The notes under the pieces: generated by a model
The model's input: only the letters and a program-made list of their open reading frames with translations
The model's database searches: none
Told to the model about the DNA's origin: nothing
NCBI GenBank assembly: GCA_017642965.1
Contig: JAEPOJ010000012.1
Location: 1-64,000, forward strand
Reading direction: 5' to 3'
Length of the DNA stretch: 64,000 nucleotides
Source: Phycisphaerales bacterium
GTDB lineage: Bacteria; Planctomycetota; Phycisphaerae; Phycisphaerales; UBA1924
Position numbers and translations under genes: made by a program
Shown: positions 3,328 through 9,681 of the stretch, piece after piece
How positions within the stretch are numbered: the first letter of the stretch is position 1
Layout of the letters: each line of letters begins with the position of its first letter

Positions 3328-3795
3328 ATGAATGAAGAGACCAACAACCGCCATGATGAATCCGTGACGCCTCAGACGATCGGGGCGACCGCTTCGAGCG
3401 GCGCTCGGATTCTGGATCAGGAGACCGCGATGGCATTCGCGGTCAGGGCCGCCCAGTCGCTCAACGACGACAAGTGCGCCGATGTGATCGTGCTTGATGT
3501 GACCGGGGTCTCTCCGGTCACCGGGTTTATTGTGATTGGCTCGGGCACTTCTGCGCGTCAGATGCGCAGCTCGCTTGAGAACGTGAACGACCTCGCCAAA
3601 GAGGTCGGCACGCGGGCATACGCGATCTCCAGTGACGAGCGCGCGATGTGGCTGCTCGCTGATTTCGTGGACGTCGTCGTGCACCTGTTCGAACCCAACG
3701 CGCGTGCGCACTACGACCTGGAGTCGCTGTGGTCCAACAGCACCCGCGTCGAGGTGCCGCCGAGTGAGCGGAAGCGTCCGGGCTTTGCGGAATGA
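3328..3795 (+). CDS. rsfS: Ribosome silencing factor RsfS (Iojap family)
   Basis: 155 residues. After a variable N-terminus of about 35 residues the Iojap/DUF143 domain is clear: AVRAAQSLNDDKCADVIVLD, SPVTGFIVIGSGTSARQM, then WLLADFVDVVVHLFEPNAR and YDLESLWSNS. The family binds uL14 on the large ribosomal subunit and blocks subunit joining when nutrients are short. The ATG at 3328 is 18 bp after the methyltransferase stop. The stop codon overlaps the aroB start (ATGA), implying translational coupling. The N-terminal extension is longer than in E. coli RsfS (105 residues) and has no recognised motif. Confidence 0.93.
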   Translation: MNEETNNRHDESVTPQTIGATASSGARILDQETAMAFAVRAAQSLNDDKCADVIVLDVTGVSPVTGFIVIGSGTSARQMRSSLENVNDLAKEVGTRAYAISSDERAMWLLADFVDVVVHLFEPNARAHYDLESLWSNSTRVEVPPSERKRPGFAE

Positions 3796-4970
3796 GCGAG
3801 CGGATCATCGATGTCGATCTCGCGGAGCGGGCGTATGAGGTGCGCGTCGGGCGTGGCTCGCTGAGCGGCGTCGCCAGCGCGGCGAGGTCCCTGCTCGGGC
3901 GTCGGTCAGCAAAGGCGCTCATCGTGCGCGACACCGGTGTCCCCGATCGGTTCGAGGCGGGGCTTGTCGGATCGCTGCGTGGCGAGGGCTTCGAGACGAG
4001 CGTGTACGCGATCACGCCGAGCGAATCGATCAAAGAGATAGGGACCGTCCGGGACGTGCTGGTGGATGCCGCGCGGTTCGGGATGTCGCGGGTGGACGTC
4101 GTGGTTGCCCTGGGCGGCGGGGTTGTCGGCGATATCGCCGGCTTTGTCGCGGCGAGCTATCAGCGTGGGATGCCGGTGATCCAATGCCCCAGCACGCTGC
4201 TCTCGATGGTTGATGCATCCGTCGGCGGGAAGACGGGCGTGAACCTGCCTGTAGACGGCGCGCTCTACAAAAACATGGTCGGTGCGTTTCACCAGCCGGT
4301 GCTCGTGGTTGCGGACACAGAGTTGCTGGACTCGCTCGATGCCCGACAGCGTCGGTGCGGGCTCGCCGAGTGCATCAAGCACGCCATGATCTGCGGCAGC
4401 GTTCCGGACGAAGACGATCTGAACGCGGGGCTGCTGACTTGGATGACAGAACGCCTCGGCGCGATCGCCGCGTTCGAGCCCGACACGATCGATGAGCTCG
4501 TTGCCCGCAACGTTGCGCTCAAGGCCAGCGTCGTCATCGGGGACGAGCGAGAATCGCCGGACGCGAAGTCGGGCGGGCGGATGCTGCTGAACTTCGGCCA
4601 TACGTTCGGGCACGCGATCGAAACGCTCGGTGGCATCAGCCCGAGCAATGACCCCGCGGAGGCGCCGCTGCACCACGGTGAAGCGGTGGCGCTGGGCATG
4701 TGCTGCGCGTGCGCTTCAGCGGCTGCAGGCGGCATGTGCGATAAGGACGTTGTGCGGATGCTGCGAGCAATGCTCGATCGGGTGGGTTTGCCCACGAGCG
4801 TCGAGGGGCTGCCTTCCACGGACGAGATCATCGAGCGGATGGGGCATGACAAGAAGGCCGCCGGCGGATCGCTCCGCGTGATTCTGCCCATCGGTCGGGG
4901 AGAATGCTCGATCGTGCCCGACGTAGACCCCGCCGTGCTCGCCGCGGGGATCGATTCGATCCGGCGCTGA
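3792..4970 (+). CDS. aroB: 3-dehydroquinate synthase AroB
   Basis: 392 residues. It catalyses the second step of the shikimate pathway, DAHP to 3-dehydroquinate, using NAD and a divalent metal. The NAD-binding GGGVVGDIAGFVAASYQRG motif is present, as are PSTLLSMVDASVGGKTGVN, GLAECIKHAMI, LLNFGHTFGHAIE (metal-binding histidines) and HHGEAVALGM (third metal ligand). The length is slightly above the usual 360. The ATG overlaps the rsfS stop by 4 bp, so it is probably part of the transcript that starts at lpxA. After the stop come about 150 bp without any gene. Confidence 0.96.
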   Translation: MSERIIDVDLAERAYEVRVGRGSLSGVASAARSLLGRRSAKALIVRDTGVPDRFEAGLVGSLRGEGFETSVYAITPSESIKEIGTVRDVLVDAARFGMSRVDVVVALGGGVVGDIAGFVAASYQRGMPVIQCPSTLLSMVDASVGGKTGVNLPVDGALYKNMVGAFHQPVLVVADTELLDSLDARQRRCGLAECIKHAMICGSVPDEDDLNAGLLTWMTERLGAIAAFEPDTIDELVARNVALKASVVIGDERESPDAKSGGRMLLNFGHTFGHAIETLGGISPSNDPAEAPLHHGEAVALGMCCACASAAAGGMCDKDVVRMLRAMLDRVGLPTSVEGLPSTDEIIERMGHDKKAAGGSLRVILPIGRGECSIVPDVDPAVLAAGIDSIRR

Positions 4971-5122: not shown

Positions 5123-6622
5123 GTGCGCACGTTCACGGTGATCAATCAGAAGGGTGGTTGCGGCAAAACCACGACGGCGATCAACCTCGCCGCGGCCTTC
5201 GCCCGCGCGGGATGCCGGACGCTGCTCGTTGATCTCGATCCCCAGTCGCACTGTGCGGCCGGTCTTGGGATCCCTGAGGATCGCCTTGATCAGGACGTCT
5301 CGGATGCGCTCCGTGCCCCGATTGATGCGGAACTCAATCGTGATCGGTACATCTGGCACGTGAGCCGCAACCTGGACCTGCTGCCATCACGCATGAAACT
5401 CGCCGGCATTGAAGCGCCGGGTGGCGGGCTTGCTGATCAGGAAGACAAGGAGAAGCGTCTCCGCAGCGTGCTGGCACGCCTGACGCGAGACGACTCGCCA
5501 ACTGGAACCGAGGAGCACGCCGATCGCACTGAGATTGGTCCGCGTTCGTTGTATGACGTGTGCGTGATCGACTGTCCGCCTTCCATCGGCCTGCTGTCGT
5601 ACAACGCCATCGCCGCCGGGCGAGAGGTGCTGATCCCCGTCGAGACAAGCTTCTTCTCGCTCAAGGGGGCGTCCAAGCAGGTGCAGACGACGCGCTCGAT
5701 CGCACGCCGGATCGGCATGCGGATCCATCCGCGCCTGCTGGCCACGATGCACGACCCGTCGCAACCCCTGGCGCGTGACTTGCTCGATGATCTCCGTGAT
5801 CGCTTCGGGAGCGGGATGATCCCGGTCGTGGTGCGATACGATCACGCGCTCAAGGAAGCCGCCTCCTTCGGTCAGCCCATCGACGAGTACGACCCGGAAT
5901 CGATGGGCACCGAGGATTACCGATCGCTCTGTGAGTGGCTGATCGAGCATGTGAGCATTGATCGCCCTGAGCCGGGGGAAGAAACCGCGGAACTCGGACG
6001 GATCGAACCGCCGGCTACGCTCGCAGATGCGTCGCTCCGGGTCCAGATCGCGGCCGCGAACATGGGCATCAGCGGCGGGCTCGACGGCACGGAAGTCGGT
6101 GATGGATCGCTCTCGAGGGCGCAGGAGCTTGCGATCAGAGCTAGGACCATGCAATCGAGCGAGCCGAGGGCTGCGGAGCAATCGGCGGGTTCGGCCCCCT
6201 CAGCGGTCGCGGAGAAGAAGCCAGAGCCGCTCCGACGTTCGATGATGCCGCACAAGCCGGTCGCTGTGGAGATCCGTGACGATCGGGTCGTGGAACCGGG
6301 CAGCAGGCCCAATGGCATGGAGATTACACGCGTGCGTCACCTGTTTGGGGTGCGTCGGAGCTCAACAGGCATTCTCTTTGTGCAGCCCGGATCAATCGGC
6401 AACCGCATCGAGATCGCGGGCGACTTCAACGGCTGGGATCCGAGCTCAACCCGCATGACGCTGAATGAGGCGTTGGGTGTGTATGAGCTGCACCTGAAGC
6501 TGCCAACCGGCTCGTACGCTTACAAGCTGGTTGTGGACGGGCAGTGGGTGCTGGACGCGTATAACCCGGATCTCGTGGATAACGGGATGGGCGGGCGAAA
6601 CAACCGGTTCGAGCTGCGTTGA
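5123..6622 (+). CDS. ParA-type ATPase fused to a C-terminal glycogen-binding (CBM48/AMPK-beta-like) domain
   Basis: 499 residues. Residues 1-280 are a ParA/MinD/Soj ATPase. KGGCGKTT (about 10-17) is the deviant Walker A with its signature lysine, LLVDLDPQSHCAAGLGI is switch I/Walker A', and VCVIDCPPSIGLLSYNAI is Walker B. Residues about 280-410 form a linker without recognised fold. The last 85 residues, with IEIAGDFNGWDPSSTRM, GVYELHLKLPTGSYAYKLVV and DGQWVLDAYNP, match the AMPK-beta/isoamylase N-terminal carbohydrate-binding fold (CBM48), including the F-x-G-x-F-N-x-W signature. I chose GTG at 5123, with GGAG 8 bases upstream; GTG at 5099 is an in-frame alternative. No parB gene or parS-like site is visible nearby. 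The next gene, 113 bp on, encodes a MinD-like protein. Confidence 0.88.
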   Translation: MRTFTVINQKGGCGKTTTAINLAAAFARAGCRTLLVDLDPQSHCAAGLGIPEDRLDQDVSDALRAPIDAELNRDRYIWHVSRNLDLLPSRMKLAGIEAPGGGLADQEDKEKRLRSVLARLTRDDSPTGTEEHADRTEIGPRSLYDVCVIDCPPSIGLLSYNAIAAGREVLIPVETSFFSLKGASKQVQTTRSIARRIGMRIHPRLLATMHDPSQPLARDLLDDLRDRFGSGMIPVVVRYDHALKEAASFGQPIDEYDPESMGTEDYRSLCEWLIEHVSIDRPEPGEETAELGRIEPPATLADASLRVQIAAANMGISGGLDGTEVGDGSLSRAQELAIRARTMQSSEPRAAEQSAGSAPSAVAEKKPEPLRRSMMPHKPVAVEIRDDRVVEPGSRPNGMEITRVRHLFGVRRSSTGILFVQPGSIGNRIEIAGDFNGWDPSSTRMTLNEALGVYELHLKLPTGSYAYKLVVDGQWVLDAYNPDLVDNGMGGRNNRFELR

Positions 6623-6735: not shown

Positions 6736-8247
6736 ATGGATGATACACGCGATGGCACGCACGGGGTCGGTGATGGACGCGATGGCGCTCACCCTTCGAT
6801 CCGCCTGGCACCGATCGATCATGATGAGTACGACGCGCTGGCGGACCTTTTTCTGGGCGACGGCGAGCTTGCGCCCGGCGCTGGGCAGCCCGATCAGCCG
6901 GGGCATCAGACACACACTCCAGTTCTCCAGCTCACGCATGATGTTGACGAGCGCGGAGATGTCGAGGAAGATCCAGCCGCTGCGACCGCGAGCGTGATCG
7001 AGTCACTCGAGGCAACGGGTATGCACGCCTCGGCCCTGATGTCGGAGCTGATGGAAGATGGTGAAGAACCAGGCGTGGACTTTGTTCGTTTGCCTCGACC
7101 CAGGGTTGAGGTCATCGTGCTGGGACACCTCCCGGTCCGAGCCACGCTATGGGCCCGTCAGTACGCCTGCGGGAGCGCGAAGGAACACGACGAGATCGTG
7201 GCGCTCGTGCGTGCGGCGTCCGGGAGCACGGCGATCGATCTGATCACCGGGCGTGAGCCGGAGCGTGCGATGGGCTGCGCGGATATCGAGAGCGCGATGG
7301 AATCGATCCATGAGCGGGCGGACCGAGTGATCATGCGTGTCGACGAGCGGATCGAGCCCGAGCTGCTGGACCGTCCCGAGGTTGACACCATCACCATCCT
7401 GACCGGGGCTGACGAGGCCGCGGTCGTTGCCTCGTACCGGCTTGTGAAAACGGTCGACGCGACGCTCAACGATCGCTACGAGGATCAAGGCGATGCGCCA
7501 CGCGTTCGGATCGCGGTGATGGGCTCGCCGAGAGATCACGCCGAGGATGCGCGATTCAAGCTGGAAAACGCGGTCGCATCCTTCCTCGAGCGTCCGGTTG
7601 AGATCATGATCGGCTCAGGTCGGATCGATGCGACCGGCACGACGAACATCTTCCGCGATACGCGCTCGCACCACGCGGGTGACATCATCGACGGGCTCGT
7701 CGCGCTGGCGCACCACGCGGAGATTGAAACGTCTACTGACGACGAACCGCCGGTGGTCGAGACCCGCGTCCTGAGCGCATCACAGGTCAAGCCACGTACC
7801 GGTGCGGATACGCGCGAAGAAGCGCCTCCTCGTGAGGGCAAGGGCGTCGAGCGGGACCCCGATATGCGGGACGGCCTCTGCGCATTGCTCGATGGCGTGC
7901 GGCCGATTGAGACGCGCTGCCCGAAGGCGCAGGGCGTCGAGATGGGGATGGACGACGAGGGGCGCCTGCACCTCGTTGCTTGTGATGCGGACTGCCACAC
8001 AGCGCTTGAACGCCTGTACACCGCCCAGAGCTGGGCCCGGGAGCACCTCGGGCTGCTGCTCCGTGCCGAACCCGGCCTGCGGTTCCCGAGCCCAGATCCG
8101 CGCGATGATTCGGACGCGGTGATGCACCTGATCTCGCACGAGCCGGCCGCGATGCGTGGGATCTACGATACGCCGGTGCGGATGTACGCGTTGGCTCGCG
8201 TGCGTCTGGGCAGCGTGATCGCGCAGGTTGCGACGCCGCTGAACTGA
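6736..8247 (+). CDS. MinD/FlhG-like protein apparently lacking a P-loop, unknown function
   Basis: 503 residues, family not certain. ATG at 6736 has GGAG 6 bases upstream; a GTG at 6712 is in frame. The first 130 residues are acidic. Residues about 130-300 look like the second half of a MinD/FlhG fold: VEVIVLGHLPVRATLWARQY stands where the P-loop should be, TITILTGADEAAVVASYRLV matches the MinD 'TTP-x-x-A-x-x-DAY-x-L-x-K' segment, and VRIAVMGSPRDHAEDARFKL plus VEIMIGSGRID match the segment after it. No GKT/S Walker A is present. The C-terminal 170 residues are unrecognised and contain several cysteines. Its position after the ParA-CBM48 fusion suggests partnership; this is inference. A TATACT hexamer at 6651-6656 could be a -10 element for it, but no well-spaced -35 is visible. 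Confidence 0.6.
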   Translation: MDDTRDGTHGVGDGRDGAHPSIRLAPIDHDEYDALADLFLGDGELAPGAGQPDQPGHQTHTPVLQLTHDVDERGDVEEDPAAATASVIESLEATGMHASALMSELMEDGEEPGVDFVRLPRPRVEVIVLGHLPVRATLWARQYACGSAKEHDEIVALVRAASGSTAIDLITGREPERAMGCADIESAMESIHERADRVIMRVDERIEPELLDRPEVDTITILTGADEAAVVASYRLVKTVDATLNDRYEDQGDAPRVRIAVMGSPRDHAEDARFKLENAVASFLERPVEIMIGSGRIDATGTTNIFRDTRSHHAGDIIDGLVALAHHAEIETSTDDEPPVVETRVLSASQVKPRTGADTREEAPPREGKGVERDPDMRDGLCALLDGVRPIETRCPKAQGVEMGMDDEGRLHLVACDADCHTALERLYTAQSWAREHLGLLLRAEPGLRFPSPDPRDDSDAVMHLISHEPAAMRGIYDTPVRMYALARVRLGSVIAQVATPLN

Positions 8248-8271: not shown

Positions 8272-9681
8272 TTACAGGCAGCCAGAACCAGCTGCTTGGA
8301 TGAACACGCTGACATCAGACATGTCCCAGCGGGCGTCGTTCGTGAGATCGGCGAGCGGGGCGTTGCTGGTGAACGCCACGATGAATGTGTACACGTCGAA
8401 GAAGTTAAACGTGCCGTCGGCGTTGAGGTCCGCGGGGCAGAAATCGGGTGTGGTGAAGAGATAGGCCGCTCCAGAGCCGTTGGCGTGGTCGTCGTCGCCG
8501 TCGGCCCCGGCTGCGACGATGCCGTTATCGATGTCGATCGAAATACCCAGGTGATCGAGCGCCTCTCCGTCACTCGCGAGGAGTTTCGCGATCTGCAGCC
8601 CGGTGGGAACATCAAAGAGGTACGCGGTGCCGGCATGCGGCCCGTTATCGTCGAACTCGCCCCATGCTCCAACAGCCACAATCCCGCTCTCAACAGCAAC
8701 GCTCCTGCCAAAGCGGTCCTGGACATCGCCGTCGTCGGCGAGCAGCTTTTTGACCTGGGCGCCGGTTGTGGCGTTGAAGAGGTAGACCGAACCGGAATCG
8801 GTGTTGTTATCGTCGTCTCGTGGCGCTCCCACGGCAACGATGTTGTCTTCGATGGCAATGTCGTGGCCAAACTGATCGTTTGGATCGGCGTCGGAGGGGA
8901 GGAGCTTGGTGAGCTGCTCGCCTGTGGATGCGTCGAAGAGGTACGCTGAGCCGTCGAATATGTACAGGGCGGAGACGGCGACGATGCCGTTGTCGATGTC
9001 GATGGCGCTGCCGAAGAAATCGCCCGGAGCACCGTCTTCGGGGAGGAGCTTCGCGATCTGTGTGCCGGTTTGTGCGTCGAAGATGTATGCAGAGCCGGAG
9101 TTCTCGCCGTTGTCGTCGTCTGACTCCGCCCCAACGACGACGATGCCGTCATCGATGGCGATCGAGGCGCCGAAGTAGTCGTTGGGGGAGCCGTCGCTCG
9201 CAACAAGCTTCATGATCTGTTGGCCGGTTGAAGCGTCGAAGAGATAGGCCGCGCCTGATCTTGGGCCGTTGTCGGAGTCCGTGAAGGCCCCGATCGCGAC
9301 GATGCCGTTGTCGATGGCGATAGAGCTGCCAAACTGGTCCTCGGGGGTGCCGCTCGTAGTCTGGAGCGTGTAGATCAGTTCTCCGGTGGATGCATCGAAG
9401 AGGTAAGCGCCGCCGCTGCTGCTGCTGACACGAGGTGTACCGATCGCAACGATTCCTTCATCGATGGCGATAACCAGCCCAAAGTTGTCGTTCGCCCGGC
9501 CAAAGTCACGCAGGAGCTTGAAATCCTCGTTGATGACTTGGCCAGCAGCTGAGAAGGTGCAGAGTGCGATAGTTGTCGTTGCGAGGCGTGCGGGTTGATT
9601 TGGCATGGTCTTGTCCATTCGGTGCTTGTGCAGGCTCGGTTCCTGTTGTTCTTCGGCTCTGTGCCTCGGCTTCGTGTTCAT
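8272..9681 (-). CDS. Secreted FG-GAP repeat (beta-propeller) protein with GC-type dockerin-like tail
   Basis: Up to 469 residues. A signal peptide (ARLATTTIALCTFSAAGQV) is followed by seven repeats of about 50 residues of the form D-x-FG-x-SIAIDNGIVAVGA...GAAYLFDASTG-x-x-I-x-KL. Seven FG-GAP units would make a complete seven-bladed propeller, as in integrin alpha-like domains. The last 55 residues are CPADLNADGTFNFFDVYTF, then a second EF-hand-like unit with DLTNDARWDMSDVSVFI, ending GSGCL. This tail is typical of secreted Phycisphaerae proteins. The start is uncertain: ATG at 9681 gives a long n-region, and ATGs at 9618 and 9606 would give a standard signal peptide. It is convergent with the plus-strand gene that ends at 8247. 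Confidence 0.85.
   Translation of the reverse strand: MNTKPRHRAEEQQEPSLHKHRMDKTMPNQPARLATTTIALCTFSAAGQVINEDFKLLRDFGRANDNFGLVIAIDEGIVAIGTPRVSSSSGGAYLFDASTGELIYTLQTTSGTPEDQFGSSIAIDNGIVAIGAFTDSDNGPRSGAAYLFDASTGQQIMKLVASDGSPNDYFGASIAIDDGIVVVGAESDDDNGENSGSAYIFDAQTGTQIAKLLPEDGAPGDFFGSAIDIDNGIVAVSALYIFDGSAYLFDASTGEQLTKLLPSDADPNDQFGHDIAIEDNIVAVGAPRDDDNNTDSGSVYLFNATTGAQVKKLLADDGDVQDRFGRSVAVESGIVAVGAWGEFDDNGPHAGTAYLFDVPTGLQIAKLLASDGEALDHLGISIDIDNGIVAAGADGDDDHANGSGAAYLFTTPDFCPADLNADGTFNFFDVYTFIVAFTSNAPLADLTNDARWDMSDVSVFIQAAGSGCL

Follow-up and report, generated by a model that had tools for sequence, protein, structure and literature searches.

A ParA-type ATPase carrying a C-terminal CBM48 domain and its putative P-loop-less ParA/MinD-fold partner in Planctomycetota

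The window, the whole stretch of 64,000 nucleotides of Phycisphaerales DNA that was analysed, carries on its forward strand a single open frame for a ParA–CBM48 fusion protein of 499 residues (5123..6622), whose GTG start was placed from homologues. The protein consists of a ParA-type ATPase domain (residues 1–282, 5123..5968), a linker (residues 283–402, 5969..6328) and an AMPK-beta/CBM48 domain (residues 403–499, 6329..6622). The initial annotation had described a full ParA ATPase and a C-terminal AMPK-beta/CBM48 module in one ORF, and this architecture is confirmed, both parts scoring over their Pfam cut-offs. Directly downstream on the same strand lies a partner gene (6736..8247), the ORF of which is open from 6712 and likely starts with the ATG at 6736. 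The upstream neighbours rsfS (3328..3795, forward strand) and aroB (3792..4970, forward strand), both assigned by Pfam, are found there in part of the order only. Further downstream, the protein encoded at 8272-9681 on the reverse strand and a protein of another locus (L205, 354-2750) end alike with CPADLN.DG..NFFDV..F, which by eye has a dockerin-like or sorting-tail look.

The ATPase domain is defined by Pfam AAA_31/CbiA, by its ParA fold and by invariant alignment columns. It contains the deviant Walker A motif KGGCGKTT with the signature lysine Lys10, followed by LLVDLDPQ and VIDCPPS. The pattern KGG[CVS]GKT is present in 88 of the 91 fusion sequences and unmatched in 3, and the PDB fold comparison list of the fusion protein is filled by ParA entries. 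R189 and R218 of Soj are basic residues that we take to be involved in nucleoid binding, R189 being required. By alignment, these positions are occupied by Ser and Ala in the window, and the relatives are mixed: the R189 position is Arg in 39 of the 91 rows, 23 others being unreadable by pattern, and 27 of the 91 are unreadable at the R218 position. The same genome encodes a second, canonical ParA with KGGVGKTT (L206, 3896-4930, reverse strand) on a 5.9-kb contig in which no ParB was recognised by eye; a large ORF with the appearance of a membrane metalloprotease (by eye) adjoins it.

The CBM domain is delimited by Pfam, PDB alignment and conservation. An HMM search detects the C-terminal module as CBM48, with 40.6 bits for PF16561 (cut-off 26.8) and 24.1 bits for PF02922 (cut-off 22.4), and AMPK-beta is its nearest relative among PDB sequences. 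W100, K126, W133, N150, L146 and T148 of AMPK-beta are named as carbohydrate contacts in excerpts of two studies (PMC2642990, PMC4032982). W438, K468, W475 and N493 of the window protein occupy the W100, K126, W133 and N150 positions, respectively. Conservation was assessed over 91 distinct CBM sequences drawn from 109 fusion ORFs, which are mutually related and hence not independent. Among these, Trp is kept in 90 at the W100 position and in 90 at the W133 position, the K126 position is always basic (Arg in 71, Lys in 20), and the N150 position is Asn in 82 and Asp in 6; the L146 and T148 positions are variable. Thus, the Trp and Lys/Arg residues at the carbohydrate-binding positions, a check of which had been suggested in the initial annotation, are conserved. 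From the preservation of its sugar site, the CBM would be expected to bind some alpha-glucan. A profile scan also finds short stand-alone ORFs of 107–134 residues in the genus that match the CBM region alone, apart from the fusion (G018:C67:55748-55930, G007:C10:1116097-1116276, G014:C9:122213-122371 and G003:C122:91691-91843).

The linker between the two domains, placed by alignment, is modelled with low confidence, pLDDT being mostly below 50. It contains a short helix motif, SRAQELAIRAR, and similar motifs appear in other Phycisphaerales rows of the alignment, the pattern being matched by 27 of 98 distinct linkers. Because two CBM-less relatives (L188 and L189) retain a linker-helix-like motif at or near their C-terminus, a role of its own is suggested for this putative helix.

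The partner is composed of an N-terminal helix motif, YDALADLFLG, a P-loop-less MinD-like domain and a C-terminal alpha/beta domain. In the window its fold is of the ParA/MinD type with the P-loop absent, and the nearest folds are those of FlhG and FleN. The N-terminal helix motif recurs among the partners as their most recurrent short element, and the first 60 residues of the window partner ORF are acidic (net -10). None of 23 downstream family members has a Pfam match at E 0.1 and the window partner has a MinD-like fold, so that no neighbouring ParB is recognised. The partner gene lies directly downstream of the fusion in 43 of the 73 fusion genomes of the class, and a comparable match was not seen in the 45 class genomes that lack this ParA lineage. 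A recognisable partner was not found in the other 30 fusion genomes, which are all sampled members of families f8, f17, f19, f20, f23 and f24 plus G029; there the partner is dispensable, diverged or located elsewhere in the genome. The partner gene and its adjacency to the fusion are new and go beyond the initial annotation.

The fusion is recurrent among relatives. A profile scan of 41 genomes combined with a domain search finds it in 20 of 21 genus genomes, the exception being G016, whose best ParA locus carries no CBM. Across a class sample of 120 genomes, each at least 90% complete, it is present in 73: in 46 the profile match covers the full length or nearly so, and in 27, where the match does not span both domains, the CBM was found in the same ORF. 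The 47 fusion-negative genomes belong to f15 (18), f9 (15 of 17), f22 (7), f18 (3) and f25 (1) or are G111 (f11), G030 and G036; the last two have the same ParA lineage with the CBM absent. Retrieval of the best ParA locus from 18 of the 45 lineage-negative genomes showed no CBM in any of these ORFs; for the other 27, absence is read from the profile score alone, with a best E of 1e-54 or weaker than 1e-69 among the matches listed. Of the 148 genomes in the phylum sample, 131 belong to other classes; among these, the best loci of 14 genomes were fetched and one fusion was found (G172). Genome contigs were also scanned with exact peptide patterns. For the best 80 of 138 relatives, every record matched over the full length is from Planctomycetota, and in none of the loci obtained (L046-L112) do ParA and CBM share an ORF.

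Several trivial or mobile origins of the fusion were considered. A local artefact or misassembly is ruled out, since the domains follow the same order in 20 of the 21 genomes of the genus and elsewhere in the class. The PHROGs match is to the general ParA family only, so that a phage origin is rejected. A defence origin is likewise rejected on PADLOC matches that all lie below 20 bits, and a mobile-element origin on plasmid records with partial ParA matches, none of the 5000 records listed reaching 80% query coverage.

Maximum likelihood was used to build a tree from 60 ParA domains, those of 44 fusions and 16 non-fusions; it is drawn at the midpoint, its root not being established. In it, a branch with support 100/100 sets 14 plain ParAs apart. 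The two CBM-less rows are nested among fusions from their own families. Provided that the plain ParAs contain the root, one gain of the CBM and two later losses would suffice to explain the tree, and several independent fusions are unneeded. The branch of one sequence (L148, from G029) is very long, and support for the placement of G172 is weak (81/31). No full CBM was found in any frame of the loci of the two CBM-less proteins, which gave 86 weak matches. The best of these is a CBM-like stretch of 30 residues about 3.5 kb from the gene (L188, 1437-1523, E 0.001).

The gene surroundings of the pair vary. In our own crude gene calls, which failed to call the fusion at 5 of 46 loci, no neighbour besides the partner is kept class-wide, and the flanking genes differ from family to family. 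No flagellar gene was noticed among the conserved neighbours in an inspection of these calls. A gene for a CapD-like sugar-nucleotide enzyme (by eye) lies upstream in four f11 loci. In f8 and f6 (L215-L217, L236 and L247), an HldE-like ADP-heptose synthase gene (by eye) is located one to three genes away on the opposite strand.

The distribution of glucan enzymes differs from that of the fusion. Neither a phosphorylase match nor a GlgB branching enzyme over the cut-off was found in any of the 21 genus genomes, 13 of which reach 90% completeness with contamination of 5% or less; these drafts are incomplete, and divergent enzymes may escape such searches. Weaker matches to the GlgB model occur in 15 of the 21, short CBM ORFs accounting for some. 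Among the 120 class genomes, GlgA exceeds its cut-off in one, with two f18 genomes coming close, GlgB in 15 and the GH57 branching enzyme in 19, and a phosphorylase match, mostly of a divergent kind, is found in 110 (64 of 73 fusion genomes versus 46 of 47 others). A branching enzyme at these cut-offs is commoner with the fusion (27 of 73 versus 6 of 47; Fisher p 0.004, relatedness ignored), and neither GlgB over the cut-off nor the GH57 enzyme is found in 46 of the 73. Weaker GlgB-like matches, at roughly 200 to 300 bits (E below 1e-60), occur in 43 of the 120 (17 of 73 fusion genomes, 26 of 47 others). When these are included, the difference disappears (44 of 73 versus 32 of 47; p 0.44, relatedness again ignored). 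Hence, none of the enzymes covered by the GlgA, GlgB, GH57 and phosphorylase profiles tracks the fusion in the class. In the genome of the window, GlgA and the GH57 branching enzyme are not found over their cut-offs, and a GT4-type protein scores under the glgA_Coryne cut-off. The proteins behind weaker GlgB-like matches were inspected in this genome, where two GH13 proteins have N-termini that look signal-like by eye. The same genome encodes a 489-residue GT4/GT5-like glycosyltransferase (L203, 443-1912, reverse strand) starting MRILMLGWEFPPFMAGGLGTA, which could be a divergent glucan synthase. In much of the class, ORFs of comparable size also match PF08323.

The main conflict for the interpretation is thus between an intact sugar site and glycogen enzymes that were not found. 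The initial annotation had offered glycogen granules as cargo, and the genus does not bear this out: the enzymes of granule metabolism are not found there, although the fusion is kept. A classical granule is unlikely as the cargo in the genus because glycogen-metabolism genes do not follow the fusion. Some link to an alpha-glucan may nevertheless exist, and the ATPase may respond to glycogen, as the initial annotation had also proposed.

No ParA–CBM48 architecture was found described among the open-licence PMC papers listed by the searches, in line with the initial annotation. Unlike Soj and other ParA partition ATPases, the protein carries a C-terminal CBM48, its neighbour is not a recognisable ParB, and its genome holds another ParA (L206, KGGVGKT). 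The CBM resembles the glycogen-binding domains of AMPK-beta and SEX4 (CBM48, AMPK1_CBM) in scoring over the Pfam cut-offs of this family and in keeping the W, K/R, W and N contacts, but it is attached to a bacterial ParA ATPase rather than to a kinase subunit or a glucan enzyme. As in McdA–McdB and other A/D cargo systems, an ATPase is accompanied, in 43 of the 73 fusion genomes, by a neighbouring partner whose N-terminal element is conserved; here, however, the partner itself has a P-loop-less ParA/MinD fold and the ligand domain sits on the ATPase. The Walker A motif KGGCGKT also differs from the SGGQGKT given for McdA in a passage of PMC9178275. The window partner differs from FlhG and FleN in lacking a P-loop, and no flagellar gene was noticed among the conserved neighbours. 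The parts are of known kinds, and their combination, distribution and partner are, to our knowledge, new.

We tentatively favour, at somewhat less than an even chance, an old two-gene module of an A/D-type ATPase, in which the ATP cycle places or gates something on, or in response to, alpha-glucan. The first protein would be an ATP-dependent dimer switch, and two C-terminal CBM48 domains per dimer would bind alpha-glucan. The second would offer its N-terminal helix to the ATPase, in the manner of a ParB-type N-terminal peptide, and would either trigger ATP hydrolysis or connect the ATPase with cargo. Partners of A/D ATPases act through their N-terminus, as stated in an excerpt of PMC10241942. 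Dimerisation, glucan binding, partner-stimulated hydrolysis and any positioning are what we infer from these features. A partner-worked ATP switch is an economical reading, given the unbroken ATPase motifs and the association of the partner with this ParA lineage. Several observations stand against it. A recognisable partner is missing from 30 of the 73 fusion genomes, the N-terminus of the window partner is acidic whereas those described for A/D partners are positive, and the position of Soj R189 is Ser in the window and reads as Arg in only 39 of the 91 rows, with 23 unreadable by pattern. Moreover, glucan enzymes do not track the fusion, two lineages do without the CBM, and besides the pair no neighbour is kept class-wide in crude gene calls. 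It is rather unlikely, though worth entertaining, that the ParA acts on alpha-glucan as its surface or cargo, with or without the nucleoid, together with a same-fold pseudo-ATPase partner and without classical glycogen metabolism.

Other readings of the same features have to be weighed against this partner-worked module. FleN controls FleQ, and on this model the pair may be a glucan-sensing regulator, in which the AMPK-beta-like CBM alters the cycle of the ParA/pseudo-MinD ATPase to control an enzyme or a transcription factor with no movement involved. The closeness of the CBM to AMPK-beta and of the partner to FlhG and FleN is consistent with such a regulator, as is the inhibition of AMPK by branched glucan through this very domain (an excerpt of PMC2642990), but no effector gene beside the pair is conserved class-wide in crude gene calls and a glucan pathway that tracks the fusion was not found; we regard it as a somewhat unlikely account. 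The positioning or partition of glycogen granules, which would suit the intact glucan-site residues, the excess of branching enzyme at curated cut-offs and the frequent phosphorylase match in the class, is improbable, given the absence of phosphorylase and over-cut-off GlgB matches from the genus, the 46 fusion genomes without branching enzyme at the cut-offs, the loss of the difference with weaker matches, the single GlgA and the phosphorylase kept in nearly all fusion-negative genomes. The CBM may instead have been repurposed as a protein-binding or structural module that has lost sugar binding, as might be expected from its persistence in a genus where glycogen enzymes were not found and its loss from two lineages that retain the ATPase. 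However, both Trp residues at the surface and the Lys/Arg are kept almost throughout (90, 90 and 91 of 91), although a structural role alone has no need of them, so that repurposing, too, has a low probability. It is very unlikely that the protein acts like BcsQ in directing where exopolysaccharide is made: the ParA domain does match BcsQ models and the f11 loci contain the CapD-like gene, but the TIGR03371 score of 88.3 bits is far under the cut-off of 157.85, the Walker A motif is KGGCGKT instead of the RGGVGTT given for BcsQ in a passage of PMC9178275, and the genes on either side vary by family.

ATPases of the ParA family arrange DNA and protein bodies within bacterial cells, and the cargo of many orphan members has not been established. 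The fusion described here is an orphan-type ParA with a built-in clue to its ligand, since it carries a CBM in most sampled families of the class, often together with a pseudo-ATPase partner. The cell biology of the phylum Planctomycetota is unusual. If glucan is bound, the fusion would be a direct tie between cell organisation and carbohydrate stores or signals in this phylum; if it is not, the fusion would be an example of a sugar-binding domain that serves another purpose with its contacts kept. If alpha-glucan is indeed the surface or cargo, the module would be a bacterial positioning machine directed at carbohydrate, and its presence would suggest a glucan body inside the cell that has not yet been described.
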